Source: Mycobacteriales bacterium | GTDB lineage: Bacteria; Actinomycetota; Actinomycetes; JAFAQI01 | NCBI GenBank assembly: GCA_035550055.1 | Contig: DASZRO010000005.1 | Coordinates: 1 to 64,000 of the forward strand | DNA: 64,000 nucleotides | Direction: 5' to 3' | Program-made: the position numbers and the translations under genes | Part shown: piece after piece, positions 4,531-26,511 of the stretch | Position numbering within the stretch: position 1 is the stretch's first letter | Layout: each line of letters opens with the position of its first letter | Notes under the pieces: model-generated | Told to the model about the DNA's origin: nothing | The model's database searches: none | Seen by the model: the letters and a program-made list of their open reading frames with translations, nothing else

Positions 4531-4583
4531 GACGGCGCGGCTCTCCTGTGCAGCTTGGGTTTTGCGTGAGGACGGTGGCGCAG

Positions 4584-4656
4584 TCGGGGCGGGGAGACTC
4601 GAACTCCCGATCTCCTGCTCCCAAAGCAGGCGCGCTAGCCACTACGCTACGCCCCG
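4584..4656 (-). tRNA. tRNA-Pro (anticodon UGG)
   Basis: Read on the minus strand, the acceptor stem is CGGGGCG pairing with CGCCCCG. The anticodon arm is CCTGC-TTTGGGA-GCAGG, giving anticodon TGG, and the T-loop is TTCGAGT. Length is 73 nt with discriminator A. The bases after it read CTG, so CCA is not encoded. It sits divergently 36 bases from tRNA-Gly. Confidence 0.95.
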
Positions 4657-4692
4657 CGGCGTGCCCTGCGATCTTAGGTCGGCACCGCCTGC

Positions 4693-4764
<72 letters not shown>

Positions 4765-4774
4765 CCCTTCCGTT

Positions 4775-4840
4775 TCGCCGAGCCCTACGTTCTTGGTCTT
4801 TCGGACCCCCTTGAAAGACCGTTTTCGTTGGGCTCGGCGA
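4775..4840 (+). repeat. Stem-loop repeat copy R1 behind tRNA-Gly, terminator-like
   Basis: Perfect 11-bp outer arms TCGCCGAGCCC (4775-4785) and GGGCTCGGCGA (4830-4840) enclose an inner hairpin GGTCTTTC (4795-4802) with GAAAGACC (4813-4820). The inner hairpin is followed by GTTTTCGTT, so it looks like the intrinsic terminator of tRNA-Gly nested in a larger inverted repeat. Two further copies lie at 25441-25506 and 26360-26425, each behind a tRNA-Gly 3' fragment. Confidence 0.85.
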
Positions 4841-4850
4841 TGATGGCGGT

Positions 4851-5846
4851 GTGACGGACAACGGGCGCGACAGCGTTGGAAGTCCGGGAGCTACCGGACG
4901 AGCCGTGCGACTCGAGTCGTTCGGCGGACCCGAGGTCTTGCGCATCCACGAACTTCCCGTGCCGCGACCTGACACGGGACAGATCCGGGTGCGGGTCAAC
5001 GCAGCCGGACTGAACCCGATGGACTGGATCATGACGGCCGACGCACAGACCGCGGCCCGGTTCGGCTTGAGTCTGCCGGCGGGCTTCGGCACCGACTACG
5101 CCGGCGTGGTGGACGAGGTCGGCGACGGCGTCACCGGGTTCGCAGTCGGCGACCGGGTGTACGGCGGTGCCGTTTCCCGCGCCGTTGCCGACTTCGTCGT
5201 CATCGACGCGGCGGGGACCATCGCGGGTGGCGGCGTGGCACATCGCACCCCGGGCGCCCTCGACGACCGCACCGCCGCGACGTTGACGATCGGGGCCTCT
5301 ACCGCCCTCGCGGCGCTGGCGGTGGTGAAGCCCGGACCAAGCGACACGGTGCTGATCGGTGGCGCGGCAGGCGGTGTCGGGGTGTTCGCCGTCCAGCTCG
5401 CGCGTCGGGCGGGGGCGCGAGTGATCGGGACCGGGGCACCGACATCGGCCGACTTCCTGCGCAGCCTCGGCGCCGAGCCCGTCGCCTACGGCGATGGGCT
5501 GGCCGACCGGGTCCGCGCCCTCGCTCCCGGCGGCGTCACCGCGGCGATCGATCTGTACGGCGACGAGGTGGTGTACGCCGCACGCGAGCTCGGCATCCCG
5601 GATCAGCGCATCACCACGATCGCTGCCCAGGTCGACGGGGTGATGCCGGCGAACGGCGCCAATGCCGCGCCCAGCTCGCTGGAGGAGGTGGCCGGCCTCG
5701 TCGCGGCCGGTGAGGTGCGCGTCCCGATTGCCGCGACCTTTCCGATCGAGCAGATCCGCTCCGCCGTCGAGCTACAGGCGGGCCGGCACGTGCACGGCAA
5801 GGTCGTCATCGACCTGCAGGGGCCGCCGCCGCTCCGTACGAAGTAG
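4851..5846 (+). CDS. NADP-dependent quinone oxidoreductase-like protein (MDR family, zinc-free)
   Basis: A 331-residue medium-chain dehydrogenase/reductase of the quinone oxidoreductase branch. The N-terminal GroES-like domain includes NAAGLNPMDW and GTDYAGVVDEVG. The nucleotide-binding Rossmann motif is GGAAGGVGVFAVQLA (about 169-183). The Cys/His ligands of zinc alcohol dehydrogenases are absent, so it should reduce quinones or enals with NADPH. The GTG start at 4851 lies only 10 bases after the R1 stem-loop and has no strong ribosome-binding site; a weak GATGGCGG precedes it. The gene stands alone between tRNA-Gly and a convergent hydrolase. Confidence 0.88.
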   Translation: MTDNGRDSVGSPGATGRAVRLESFGGPEVLRIHELPVPRPDTGQIRVRVNAAGLNPMDWIMTADAQTAARFGLSLPAGFGTDYAGVVDEVGDGVTGFAVGDRVYGGAVSRAVADFVVIDAAGTIAGGGVAHRTPGALDDRTAATLTIGASTALAALAVVKPGPSDTVLIGGAAGGVGVFAVQLARRAGARVIGTGAPTSADFLRSLGAEPVAYGDGLADRVRALAPGGVTAAIDLYGDEVVYAARELGIPDQRITTIAAQVDGVMPANGANAAPSSLEEVAGLVAAGEVRVPIAATFPIEQIRSAVELQAGRHVHGKVVIDLQGPPPLRTK

Positions 5847-10108: not shown

Positions 10109-12481
10109 ATGATGACCGCTATGACGCCACACCGCCGTAAGTCCCTGCCCGCCGGACGCAGCTTCGCGGCGGCCGTCGCGTTGCTGGCGAGCCTGATCGT
10201 CGGCGTCGGCGCCGCGTCCGCCAGCCCGCACGCCGGGGCGGGGCCGCTGTCGGTGACGGGCAGCGTCAACGAGGTCTTCGCGACCGGCGTCGCGCCGGGC
10301 GCGACCGCCGAGCTGACCGACTCGGCCGGCAAGGTCGTGGCGAAGCAGGCCGCGGACTCCCTCGGCGGCGTCATCTTCTACAAGGTCAAGGCGGCCAGCG
10401 GCTACCGCGTCGTCGCCGGCGGGAAGACCAGCAAGCCGGTGACCGTGCACACCAAGCGGTCGGCGCCGTGGGACCCGTCGGTCTACAACCAGTCGATCCC
10501 CGACTCCGGGTACGGCTACCTCACGACGCGTGACGGCACGAAGCTCGCGATCGACGTCCACCCGCCGACCAGCCCGGCCGGCCTTGGCCTGCCCGACATC
10601 ACCTTGCCGAGCGGGCTGCCCGACTACGCCCCGCCGTACCCGACGCTGATCGAGTACTCCGGCTACGGCTACGCCAACCCGTCAGGCCCGGAGAACGGGA
10701 TCGCGGTCATCGCCAACCTCATGGGGTTCGCGGTCGTGGACGTGAACATGCGCGGCACCGGATGCTCGGGCGGCGCGTTCAACTTCTTCGAGGCGCTGCA
10801 ATCCCTCGACGGCTACGACGTGATCCAGACCATCGCCCGCCAGCCGTGGGTCAAGGGCCACAAGGTCGGCATGATGGGCATCTCCTACGGCGGCATCAGC
10901 CAGCTGTTCACCGCCTCGACCCGCCCGCCTGCCCTCGAGGCGATCGCGCCGATGTCGGTGATCGACGCGACGGCCACGACGCTCGAGCCGGGCGGCATCC
11001 TCAACACCGGCTTCGCGGTCGCTTGGGCGGAGGAGCGTCAGCAGAACGCCGAGCCCGCCACCGGACCGACCAAGGGCCAGGGATGGGCGTACAAGCGGAT
11101 CCAGTCGGGAGACCAGACCTGCAAGAGCGACCAGGTCCTGCACGGTGAGGCCGAGAACCTGCTCGACGTCATCCGGGCGAACACCCACTACCACCCGGCG
11201 TTCGCCGACTCCCTCGACCCGGACACGTTCGTCCACAAGATCGACGTGCCGACCTACATGGACTGCCAGTTCGAAGACGAGCAGACCGGCGGCCACTGCA
11301 TGGCCCTCGCTGAGCACTTCACCGGGACCAAGCACAAGTGGTTCACGTTCACCAACGGGGTGCACTTCGACTCACTCGACCCGTACCAGCTCGACCGCAT
11401 GTACGACTTCCTGGAGATCTACGTCGCCCACCAGCCGCCGCTGCTCAACGCGGCGGTGATCAACGCGGCAGCGCCGCTGGTCTACCAGATGGGCGCGGGC
11501 TTCCCGTCGAGCGATCTGGTCACCTTGCCGGCCGACCCGATCCAGCTCCAGCCGACGTACGCCGGCGCGCTTGCGGCGTTCCAGAAGCTCCCGGAGATCC
11601 GGGTGTTGTTCGACAACGGCGCCGGACCCGACCCGCTCGGCCAGGTCACCCCGGGCAACCCGTACCCGGCGTTCGAGAAGTCCTTCGCCAAGTTCCCGAT
11701 CCCCGGCACCGTCGCGAAGCGGTGGTTCCTCGGCCCGGGCGGGACGCTGACCGACCACGCCGCCACGTCGTCCCACGTGGACATTTACACCTCGAACCCG
11801 CACGCGCTGCCCATGACCGACTTCGGGCCGAACACCGGCGGCGGCGGGCTGTGGGGCGACGCCTCGCAGTGGTCGTGGAGCTGGAAGCAGAACCCGAAGG
11901 GGACCGCGGTCTCCTACGTCACAGCTCCCCTGACCACCGACACGACCGTGATCGGCGCAGGCGCCATCCACCTGTGGGTGAAGTCGTCGACCCCCGACGT
12001 CGATCTGCAGGCGACCGTGAGCGAGATCGACCCGGGCGGTCACGAGGTGTTCGTGCAGAACGGCTGGATGCGGGCCAGCGAGCGCAAGCTCGCCACCGGC
12101 AAGCACACCATCTTCGGCAGGCCCAGCACGCTGCTTCAGCCGGTGCCCAGCTTCAAGCAGTCGGACTCCGCCCCCATGCCGAAGGGCAAGTTCGTCGAGG
12201 TCGTGATCCCGCTCTACTACGAAGGCCACGTCTACCGGGCCGGCACCCGGATCCGGATCACCATCGCCGCGCCGAACGGCACGCAGCCGATCTGGGCGTT
12301 CAAGGAGACCAGGCCGGCGAAGGGCACCAGCCAGGTGTCGATCGCGTTCTCCAAGACCCGCCCGTCGAGCCTCTACCTGCCGGTGGTCCCCGGGGTGTCC
12401 GCCCCGACCGGGATCCCGGCGTGCGGGAGCCTTCGCAACGAGCCCTGCCGCGCGTACGTCCCCACCGCGAACCAGCGCTGA
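10109..12481 (+). CDS. Secreted S15 (X-Pro dipeptidyl-peptidase/CocE-NonD) hydrolase 1
   Basis: About 790 residues. A signal peptide ends near SASPHA. An extra N-terminal beta domain (GAGPLSVTGSVNEVFATG) precedes the alpha/beta-hydrolase domain. The nucleophile elbow is MMGISYGGISQ, a candidate Asp/His pair includes GVHFDS, and a C-terminal jelly-roll domain (VIPLYYEGHVYRAGTRIRI) completes the S15 fold. Members cleave X-Pro dipeptides or ester/amide side groups. Three in-frame ATGs at 10109, 10112 and 10121 compete as starts and no good ribosome-binding site chooses between them. Confidence 0.88.
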   Translation: MMTAMTPHRRKSLPAGRSFAAAVALLASLIVGVGAASASPHAGAGPLSVTGSVNEVFATGVAPGATAELTDSAGKVVAKQAADSLGGVIFYKVKAASGYRVVAGGKTSKPVTVHTKRSAPWDPSVYNQSIPDSGYGYLTTRDGTKLAIDVHPPTSPAGLGLPDITLPSGLPDYAPPYPTLIEYSGYGYANPSGPENGIAVIANLMGFAVVDVNMRGTGCSGGAFNFFEALQSLDGYDVIQTIARQPWVKGHKVGMMGISYGGISQLFTASTRPPALEAIAPMSVIDATATTLEPGGILNTGFAVAWAEERQQNAEPATGPTKGQGWAYKRIQSGDQTCKSDQVLHGEAENLLDVIRANTHYHPAFADSLDPDTFVHKIDVPTYMDCQFEDEQTGGHCMALAEHFTGTKHKWFTFTNGVHFDSLDPYQLDRMYDFLEIYVAHQPPLLNAAVINAAAPLVYQMGAGFPSSDLVTLPADPIQLQPTYAGALAAFQKLPEIRVLFDNGAGPDPLGQVTPGNPYPAFEKSFAKFPIPGTVAKRWFLGPGGTLTDHAATSSHVDIYTSNPHALPMTDFGPNTGGGGLWGDASQWSWSWKQNPKGTAVSYVTAPLTTDTTVIGAGAIHLWVKSSTPDVDLQATVSEIDPGGHEVFVQNGWMRASERKLATGKHTIFGRPSTLLQPVPSFKQSDSAPMPKGKFVEVVIPLYYEGHVYRAGTRIRITIAAPNGTQPIWAFKETRPAKGTSQVSIAFSKTRPSSLYLPVVPGVSAPTGIPACGSLRNEPCRAYVPTANQR

Positions 12482-25358: not shown

Positions 25359-25406
<48 letters not shown>

Positions 25407-25440
25407 AGCTGAAGTGGCAGGTCAGGCGGATCCCGATCGT

Positions 25441-25506
25441 TCACCGAGCCCTACGTACTTGGTCCTTCGGACCCTCTTGAAAGACCATTTTCGTTGGGCT
25501 CGACGA
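25441..25506 (+). repeat. Stem-loop repeat copy R2
   Basis: Homologous to R1 and R3. Arms TCACCGAGCCC and GGGCTCGACGA pair over their inner seven bases. The inner hairpin has GGTCCTTC opposite GAAAGACC with one mismatch, or alternatively GGTCC-TTC-GGACC. ATTTTCGTT follows. The 34-36 bases between the tRNA fragment and this repeat also match the corresponding spacer of copy 3 (GAAGTG-CAGGTCAGGCGG). Confidence 0.85.
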
Positions 25507-25525
25507 TTTCGGCGGCCGTTGTGTC

Positions 25526-25562
25526 TTGTGATTGGTCCGGCTTGGTGACTAGAATCCTAGTC
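25526..25562 (+). promoter_or_regulatory. Promoter and autoregulatory palindrome of the toxin-antitoxin pair
   Basis: TTGTGA (25526-25531) and TAGAAT (25550-25555), 18 bases apart, resemble -35 and -10 elements. The perfect inverted repeat GACTAG-AATC-CTAGTC (25547-25562) covers the -10 and ends on the base before the ATG. Transcription would start within about a base or two of the start codon, and no ribosome-binding site is present, so the message is probably leaderless. Binding of the antitoxin to the palindrome would block the promoter. Confidence 0.72.
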
Positions 25563-25841
25563 ATGGAGACCTTGCCGCTTGCCACCGTGAAGGCGCAACT
25601 GTCGAGTTTGGTCGACCAGGTGGAGGACACACACCAGCGCGTTGTGATCACCCGCAACGGCAAGCCCGCCGCGATGCTCATCAGCCTGGATGACATCGAG
25701 GGCTTGGAAGAGACCCTCGAGATCCTCTCCGACAACGAGACGATGAAGCAGATCAGGCAATCGCATGCCGACATCAAGGCGGGTCGAGTCGAGACCCTCA
25801 CCAAGGAAGACGCGCACAAGCTGATCAATCGCGGCCGTTAA
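25563..25841 (+). CDS. Phd/YefM-family antitoxin
   Basis: A 92-residue antitoxin. The N-terminal DNA-binding part is TVKAQLSSLVDQVEDTHQRV and VITRNGKPAAMLISLDD split by a turn, the standard Phd/YefM fold; the acidic helical C-terminus (EILSDNETMKQIRQ) would wrap the toxin. The ATG at 25563 is preferred over longer upstream starts because the promoter and palindrome lie just before it. One 60-base line of the gene (25681-25740) counts 34 G+C, clearly below the 43 of a pepN line, hinting at foreign origin. The stop abuts the toxin start. Confidence 0.9.
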   Translation: METLPLATVKAQLSSLVDQVEDTHQRVVITRNGKPAAMLISLDDIEGLEETLEILSDNETMKQIRQSHADIKAGRVETLTKEDAHKLINRGR

Positions 25842-26114
25842 ATGCCGCCGGTCTACCGGATCGAGTGGACCGCCACCGCCAAACGCGGACTGGCCCAGCT
25901 TCCGGAGAGGGTCGCTACCGCGCTTGTCGAGTTCATCTACGGACCACTTGCCGAGTCGCCCCATCGCTTCGGCCATGAGTTGCACCTGGAACTCGCCGGG
26001 CATCACTCAGCACGCCGCGGAACCTTCCGCGTGATCTACATCATCGATGACGACGATCGACGAGTAGTGATCACCGACGTCAAGCATCGCGGCGATGCCT
26101 ACCGCCGCCATTAG
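25842..26114 (+). CDS. RelE/ParE-family toxin
   Basis: A 90-residue RelE-type toxin, which in this family cleaves mRNA on the ribosome. It has the small alpha-beta fold motifs YRIEWTATAKRGLAQLPE, LELAGHHSARRGTFRVIY split across strands, and the C-terminal VVITDVKHRGDAYRRH with basic and His/Tyr residues that form the active site in RelE/YoeB proteins. The ATG directly follows the antitoxin TAA with no spacer, so the pair is translationally coupled. Its stop codon TAG directly abuts the C1 repeat. Confidence 0.9.
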   Translation: MPPVYRIEWTATAKRGLAQLPERVATALVEFIYGPLAESPHRFGHELHLELAGHHSARRGTFRVIYIIDDDDRRVVITDVKHRGDAYRRH

Positions 26115-26187
26115 CCCACGCAGGCGTACCCGGAGACGTACCGCTCGACGTACCCCTGCGTGTTCACTTCGTGCCCGATCTCGCGGA
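26115..26187. repeat. Tail repeat copy C1, behind the toxin gene
   Basis: Starts CCCACGCAGGCGTACCC and ends GTTCACTTCGTGCCCGATCTC. It is homologous to C2 at 26426-26508. Inside, the motif (G)CGTACC recurs three times at 11-12 base steps, giving an iteron-like appearance. The remaining bases up to the next tRNA fragment at 26284 show no gene or structure I can name. Confidence 0.78.
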
Positions 26188-26283
26188 TACTGGCGGCGCC
26201 CAACAAGCTCGATTGGAGATCGCTTGAGATGACTGCCTGCGCACACCAGCGCAGCAGTCGGTCAGGGATCGCCGGTCCTGTCG

Positions 26284-26324
<41 letters not shown>

Positions 26325-26359
26325 CTGCATGAAGTGCCAGGTCAGGCGGTTGCTGTCGT

Positions 26360-26425
26360 TCACCGAGCCCTACGTACTTGGTCCTTCGGACCCCCTTGAA
26401 AGACCATTTTCGTTGGGCTCGGCGG
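26360..26425 (+). repeat. Stem-loop repeat copy R3
   Basis: Third copy of the stem-loop, with arms TCACCGAGCCC (26360-26370) and GGGCTCGGCGG (26415-26425). The inner hairpin uses GGTCCTTC opposite GAAAGACC and is followed by ATTTTCGTT. Its right arm runs straight into C2, with nothing corresponding to the toxin-antitoxin genes present behind R2. Confidence 0.85.
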
Positions 26426-26511
26426 CCCACGCAGGCGTACCCGACGCCTGCCGCTCGACGTACCCCGAGACGTACCCCGACGGGTTCACTTCGTGCCCGA
26501 TTTCACGGCGG
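26426..26511. repeat. Tail repeat copy C2, fused directly to R3
   Basis: Shares CCCACGCAGGCGTACCC, CCGCTCGACGTACCCC and GTTCACTTCGTGCCCGAT with C1. It carries one extra GACGTACCCC-type unit, so the iterated motif differs in number. Bases 26512-26651 beyond it contain no gene that I can support. Confidence 0.78.

Follow-up and report, generated by a model that had tools for sequence, protein, structure and literature searches.

Dispersed extragenic palindromes, often forming species-specific families, have been described as REP elements or REPINs. According to passages of PMC3733652, they are found mainly behind genes, the gene of the associated RAYT enzyme (TnpA_REP) is itself flanked by the repeats, and the elements measure 20-40 bp and carry an unpaired GTAG or CGTC tag, those of the CGTC type having stems of 8-9 bp and no dedicated transposase (further passages on REP and RAYT are found in PMC2817692, PMC3116915 and PMC8266576). 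Palindrome recognition of another kind is described in passages of PMC3985639 for AbiEi, the antitoxin of the type IV toxin-antitoxin system AbiE, which binds a 23-3-23 inverted repeat before its own operon. Dispersed stem-loop repeats of actinobacteria have already been catalogued, among them Myt-1 of M. tuberculosis (72 nt, 75 copies) and Cod-5 of C. diphtheriae (74 nt, 35 copies); no mobiliser is named in passages of that catalogue (PMC2267715), in the text of which the words 'transposase' and 'endonuclease' occur zero times.

The palindrome considered here, R1, follows a tRNA-Gly gene in a 64-kb window (the whole stretch of 64,000 nucleotides that was analysed) of a draft genome in many contigs, designated G000; other genomes, contigs and loci carry G, C and L numbers. 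The nested arms of the original prediction are real: the outer arms TCGCCGAGCCC (4775-4785) and GGGCTCGGCGA (4830-4840) form an exact 11-bp inverted repeat, and the 8-bp inner arms GGTCTTTC (4795-4802) and GAAAGACC (4813-4820) are followed by the T-run GTTTTCGTT (4821-4829). The RNA fold of positions 4767-4850 reached -48.3 kcal/mol (z -8.25 against shuffles). Two further copies in the window, R2 and R3 (Table 1), are 88% and 86% identical to R1 over 76 nt, a match not seen in any of 100 shuffles, and both fold with a z of -4.7. All three had been placed behind tRNA-Gly 3' ends; this held for the sequence match, and R2 and R3 keep the T-run, but they follow truncated 3' halves, beginning 34-35 nt past the end of the fragment, and ARAGORN recognised a single tRNA-Gly in the window.

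Table 1. Positions of the palindrome copies and neighbouring features in the window
Feature	Position	Strand	Evidence
tRNA-Gly(TCC), complete; neighbour of the palindrome, outside the element	4693..4766	+	ARAGORN; Rfam tRNA 69 bits
R1, ~64-nt palindrome, one of at least 31 copies, T-run subfamily	4775..4840	.	arm sequence, alignment, RNA fold, genome search
Inner hairpin and GTTTTCGTT, terminator-like part of R1	4794..4829	+	terminator scan; sequence
tRNA-Gly 3'-half fragment before R2	25364..25406	+	sequence match; no ARAGORN tRNA here
R2, palindrome copy	25442..25505	.	sequence match; alignment; genome search
Phd/YefM-type antitoxin gene enclosed by R2 and R3 as a passenger; the cognate gene lies elsewhere	25563..25841	+	PF02604 E 3.2e-19 (Pfam match on ORF 25494-25841; ATG at 25563 assigned by eye)
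ParE-type toxin gene between R2 and R3	25842..26114	+	PF05016 E 3.1e-7
tRNA-Gly 3'-half fragment before R3	26284..26326	+	sequence match
R3, palindrome copy	26361..26424	.	sequence match; alignment; genome search

The search of the window's own genome revealed a dispersed family. A 157-nt query gave 43 matches, mostly to the palindrome alone, and a covariance model built from 30 copies found at least 31 clear places spread over many contigs, together with two weak additional places on contig C80 (E 0.004 and 0.99); genome-wide copy numbers of this kind are lower bounds, and the true numbers may be higher. In length and copy number the family is similar to the orphan stem-loop families Myt-1 and Cod-5. 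The element is a near-perfect palindrome of ~64 nt, because of which both strands match the covariance model. Most copies pair almost continuously over ~28 bp around a loop of ~8 nt (86.8% of the cells are paired in the 30-copy alignment), so that inner and outer arms belong together instead of forming two modules, contrary to the original proposal, and a second fold competing with a terminator becomes superfluous, since there is a single hairpin. A TTTT stretch behind the inner stem is present in five of the 30 aligned copies, namely R1, R2, R3, L009 and L010. Identity to R1 is 91-97% for the last four and 73-86% for all other copies, and judging by these values the T-run subfamily looks like a recent burst. 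Among the copies of this genome, no covariation was detected beyond that of shuffles.

The palindrome copies are mostly intergenic. With gene boundaries set by a simple codon-usage caller and the copies masked with stops, 20 of 31 have the called 3' end of a protein gene no more than 100 bp away (21 when tRNA-Gly is counted), and eight of 31 stand between convergent genes. Without R1, five of 30 copies are flanked by the 5' ends of two divergent genes; R1 was omitted from this count, as tRNA genes were uncounted and it therefore appeared between two 5' ends. With unmasked gene calling, three of 32 copies fell inside called ORFs. The view of the original prediction, broadened to a family of tRNA and gene terminators acting in both directions between convergent genes, draws on the preference for gene 3' ends and on the inner hairpin and T-run of R1, which form the sole terminator-like site in 4560-4900 (shuffles average 0.2). 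The copies between two 5' ends and the restriction of TTTT to five of 30 copies speak against it, and it leaves unexplained the flanking of one gene family described below; we consider it very improbable. Nor does R1 behave as a conserved tRNA-Gly terminator: the GC-rich hairpin and T-run are present, but the palindrome was absent behind tRNA-Gly in all seven tRNA-Pro/tRNA-Gly pairs with a readable flank that were examined (in G001, G002, G003, G007, G012 and G016, and a second G000 pair on C118; the G013 pair and one G012 pair, contig end, were left out). As 28 of the 31 copies lie elsewhere in the genome, the tRNA-Gly neighbour is incidental, contrary to the proposed tRNA-Gly-specific feature. 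The T-run subfamily of R1 may double as a terminator, as a side effect only.

The second pair of the own genome (G000:C118:6765-6947, L036 and L093) is 95% identical to that of the window and has different DNA behind tRNA-Gly; it is either a duplication or a contamination of the draft genome, which is listed at 2.85%.

Related palindromes were found in few relatives. At E 0.001, the covariance model matched in six of 60 genomes, the own one included, and in none of the other 54; with each place counted once, at least 31 places were obtained in G000, 18 in G001 of the same genus, eight in G007, four in G003, three in G059 and one in G011, the 60-genome search having used stricter filters. The arm letters differ from genome to genome, being GAGCCCAACG in G000 and G001, GAGTGCGACG in G007, GAGTGAGACG in G011, ACCTTGACG in most G003 copies and GAGACCGACG in G059, and the partner arms match. 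At arm positions 8-11, CCCA, TGCG, TGAG and ACCG each occur with the matching partner (this count took two of the four G003 copies, which are out of register, and two of the three G059 copies). The outer arms thus covary between genomes. The compensatory stem changes sought by the original prediction are therefore found in the outer arms between genomes, but not within the own genome; further copies, 28 of them, exist as well. In a collection of genome contigs, a strict palindrome pattern gave six loci, of which L110 is by eye a clear member and L112 a possible one, the rest looking like chance; one strict pattern was absent from the viral-contig collection.

The outer arms had also been proposed as arm sites of a recombinase. 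The attC sites of integrons carry the consensus RYYYAAC/GTTRRRY, to which GCCCAAC/GTTGGGC in the arms of the G000 and G001 versions conforms. In the listed copies of G007, G011 and G059 and in the ACCTTGACG copies of G003 GTC stands in place of GTT, the palindrome extends beyond the motif, and the copies are scattered over many contigs without arrays. No match to the integron integrase TIGR02249 rose above the cut-off in G000 (there were eight weaker ones, and weak matches below the cut-off were likewise obtained in 14 of 14 controls), and the palindrome is associated with a nuclease of the DUF559 type instead of a recombinase. An attC or other recombinase site is hardly credible on these data, and the integron candidate was dropped on the GTC cores and the lack of an integrase over the cut-off.

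In G001, G003 and G059, two palindrome copies ~1 kb apart enclose a gene of one family, and in G000 a copy on contig C95 is situated directly in front of a gene of the same family (L017), where one flank is visible because the contig ends. Other pairs of copies enclose unrelated genes (R2-R3 in G000 and the C73 pair in G007). The proteins of this family, ~290 aa long, combine an AbiEi-like N-terminus with a C-terminus of the DUF559/REase_MTES_1575 (Vsr-type) nuclease fold. At E 0.01, Pfam recognised DUF559 in 22, MTES_1575 in 25, AbiEi_1 in nine and AbiEi_4 in one of 28 proteins. PADLOC called AbiEi in four of four proteins, and AbiEi_1, scored singly in four proteins, was below the gathering score in three and without a match in one. 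E196, D229 and D253 are invariant in the 28 proteins and E240, G243, H246 and W265 nearly so, a residue pattern that suggests an intact nuclease active site. The PDB sequence matches were the endonuclease-like 3hrl (E 5e-7) and, second, the mobile intron protein 3r3p (E 0.003), which we take to be the Vsr-like homing enzyme I-Bth0305I. Like Vsr-like (EDxHD) homing endonucleases and other DUF559 proteins, the family thus has a nuclease-fold domain with conserved acidic residues; unlike the homing enzymes, it was seen in no intron or intein context, and its sites are palindromic and have dispersed non-coding copies. Likewise, the N-terminal part matches AbiEi models, but the nuclease-type C-terminal domain, the second palindrome behind the gene and the dispersed copies set the family apart from the AbiEi antitoxin.

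Homologues were present in 48 of the 60 genomes, with up to 14 per genome. The L017 protein matched one of 50,697 phage records and five of 72,556 plasmid records, and the protein of L168 matched five plasmid records, one of them beyond those found with L017; given these few matches and the absence of the strict pattern from viral contigs, spread by phage or plasmid was rejected.

The flanks of AbiEi-DUF559 genes were surveyed at 44 loci chosen, mostly by rank, from a longer homologue list, the 5' and 3' flanks being compared by local alignment (threshold score at least 36) and three loci (L017, L155 and L159) being dropped for short flanks. A repeat common to both flanks was revealed in 29 of the 41 usable loci and in none of 147 control genes (Fisher 8e-25), nor in any of 58 genes of a second control, taken from loci in the large genus of G059; excluding the loci found via palindromes (L017, L042, L046 and L064), the proportion was 27 of 38. 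These common repeats are mostly palindromes of ~55-75 nt with gene-specific letters, the upstream copies beginning ~54-256 nt before the aligned protein start and the downstream copy from 5 nt before to 36 nt after the last aligned codon. A strict ungapped scan, which was control-free, detected a palindrome in one or both flanks of 32 of the 44 loci, 15 of them having it in both.

The pattern extended to wider samples. In a class-wide set of 21 further loci (best match per genome), 10 of 18 usable loci, 17 of which represent other families, were positive. The cross-locus scores, 420 in all, peaked at 46, a value exceeded by eight of the 10 positives and not by the other two; the positives L134 and L141 consist of short repeat arrays and not of clean palindromes (L143, L140 and L124 were dropped for short flanks). 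Among 23 phylum-wide loci, 11 of 22 usable ones were positive, including eight of the 17 from other classes; here the highest cross-locus score was 51, with seven of the 11 positives above it and four not (L257 was dropped for short flanks). No common flank repeat reached the threshold in 12 of 41, eight of 18 and 11 of 22 loci of the first, class-wide and phylum-wide sets, respectively. In named genomes, the repeat pair was present in four of four loci, two in Arthrobacter sp. StoSoilB13 and one each in Arthrobacter sp. ERGS1:01 and Tsukamurella tyrosinosolvens; these come from four of the five plasmid-collection records matching L017, and the plasmid-collection matches in Nonomuraea and a second Tsukamurella fell outside the flank check. 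Hence, in Actinomycetota, a gene-specific repeat, mostly a palindrome, often stands on either side of an AbiEi-DUF559 gene.

A simpler role for the flanking palindrome would be that of an operator only, a site through which the AbiEi-like protein represses its own gene, with the dispersed copies as regulon sites or passive duplicates. Passages of PMC3985639 report that AbiEi represses abiE via its upstream 23-3-23 inverted repeat, and the position of the upstream copies before the protein start agrees with such a function. An operator has no need of a second matching copy at the end of the gene, nor of the preference of dispersed copies for gene 3' ends (20 of 31 no more than 100 bp from one by gene calls), and we regard this explanation as quite unlikely.

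Palindrome and protein sequences change together. Across 28 loci, protein identity correlated with palindrome similarity (Mantel r 0.45, 0 of 2000 permutations), and by family the correlation was r 0.74 in f1 (0 of 5000) and r 0.26 in f5 (42 of 5000). Furthermore, for six palindrome versions, dispersed copies were found in the genome carrying the matching gene and none or almost none in the few genomes or records used for comparison. The version of L145 occupies at least 19 places in G000, two of them partial, and at least nine in G001, which holds the related gene L151; none was found in G002, G003, G007 and G011, and one weak place each was found in G005 and G006. The version of L168 was found at 17 or more places in G059 and at none in G015, listed in the same genus, and that of L174 at five or more places in G015 and at none in G059. 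In the plasmid collection, the Tsukamurella version was present in eight of 72,556 records, all of T. tyrosinosolvens, and the StoSoilB13 version in two records, both of that strain. The four places of the ERGS1:01 version, all in a single record, are explicable by two flanking copies on two strands, and dispersal is therefore not established there.

These observations also bear on homing, according to which the palindromes are pre-existing landing sites, of which the DUF559 homing endonuclease cuts one so that its own gene is copied in, the dispersed palindromes themselves being immobile. The structural match to 3r3p is in keeping with such a process, and so are the different places of the unit in G000 and G001: L017 adjoins a cytochrome c assembly gene, and its closest homologue, L064 of G001 (69-72% identical), adjoins RelA/SpoT and cyclophilin genes. 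Homing leaves unexplained why the palindrome versions are missing from the compared genomes that lack the gene, and why R1-R3, L009 and L010 form a subfamily (91-97% identity to R1 vs 73-86% for the rest). It is an unlikely explanation.

Rather, we consider it moderately probable that R1-R3, as non-autonomous members of a dispersed family of palindromic elements, rely on the cognate AbiEi-DUF559 protein encoded elsewhere in the genome (L017 on C95). The association itself is shown and is best read as a REP/RAYT-like system with an unrelated nuclease, of which mobility, cleavage and autoregulation are inferred. It shares with REP and RAYT the dispersed palindromes, extragenic here by gene calls and forming species-specific families, their position mainly behind genes, and the repeat-flanked cognate gene; it differs in the length of ~64 nt, in the stems of ~26-28 bp, in a foot that is paired in most copies and hence tag-less, and in having AbiEi-DUF559 instead of an HUH/Y1 enzyme. 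That the palindromes are classical REP elements spread by a RAYT, a Y1/HUH transposase, is hardly credible despite the comparable habit of palindromic, extragenic and species-specific families: no Y1_Tnp domain (PF01797) was found at E 0.001 in G000, G001, G003, G007, G059 or G015, the first four of which are drafts in many contigs, and the control was positive in five of 14 named genomes. Classical RAYT/REP was accordingly ruled out for these six genomes.

In the REP/RAYT-like system with its own nuclease, the AbiEi-like N-terminal part would bind the palindrome arms, a natural expectation given that AbiEi binds an inverted repeat before its own operon. Once folded into a hairpin or cruciform, the palindrome would be nicked or cut by the Vsr-like domain, and its copying to another site would follow from repair or replication. 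The copy in front of the gene may double as its operator, and R1 would have landed behind tRNA-Gly. In favour of mobility of the unit are the unlike neighbourhoods in which L017 and its closest homologue L064 lie, and the recent-looking subfamily of R1-R3, L009 and L010. The palindrome site L035/L045, common to G000 and G001, appears to be old and conserved, which speaks against recent movement everywhere. No movement was observed, and a genus-wide site comparison for an empty and a filled site gave no clean pair, synteny being lost; the tRNA-Gly site of G001 matched R3 on the left side only, as did the gene at 10109-12481 its G007 homologue.

Taken more broadly, the chances are about even that AbiEi-DUF559 proteins are the mobilising enzymes of an undescribed class of transposable palindromes across Actinomycetota, each reading its own palindrome via a winged-helix-like domain, cutting it with the Vsr fold and having it copied by a non-RAYT route, and that they are the missing enzyme of the orphan stem-loop families. 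The data suggest that each nuclease propagates the palindrome belonging to it, as a form of selfish DNA that has been little studied. In a literature search that covered neither subscription papers nor preprints, an association of AbiEi/DUF559 with palindromes or repeats was undescribed among the matches listed, and DUF559 was scarcely mentioned in the same literature and never in a title or abstract. Here, individual genes of a large, little-characterised nuclease family are each linked to a palindrome of their own, and for six of them the link extends to the dispersal of that palindrome. This points to a likely substrate for the nucleases and to a likely engine for the repeats, and it makes dozens of matched protein-site pairs available for studies of DNA recognition. 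The result also bears on the question, left open for CGTC-type REPs in passages of PMC3733652, of whether another dedicated enzyme exists for RAYT-less palindromes.

At L149 (G000:C18) and L153 (G001:C2), longer palindromes of 79-99 nt with the core ACACAAACGT are located beside more distant AbiEi-DUF559 homologues. In G059, the tandem palindromes L168, L191 and L194 are ~94-104 nt apart and resemble clustered REPs. Copies L185, L186, L187, L189 and L190 of the same genome have a short T-rich stretch in front, ending in TTTG, TTG or TTT, for which a target preference is possible.

The R2-R3 region has features of its own. Within 25364-26508, two tRNA-Gly 3'-half fragments, each with a palindrome, surround the Phd/ParE toxin-antitoxin pair, and direct repeats 85% identical to each other (26135-26186 and 26457-26508) are situated on both sides of R3; the region has the appearance of a decayed hot spot for insertions at tRNA-Gly. 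The stretch separating the tRNA-Gly 3' fragment from R3 is similar to what follows tRNA-Gly in G001, where there is no palindrome. Partial matches to the tRNA-Gly 3' half were also seen in relatives (G001:C175:16460-16508, G001:C3:26519-26567 and G013:C9:72704-72750) and may be integration remnants or other tRNA-Gly genes.
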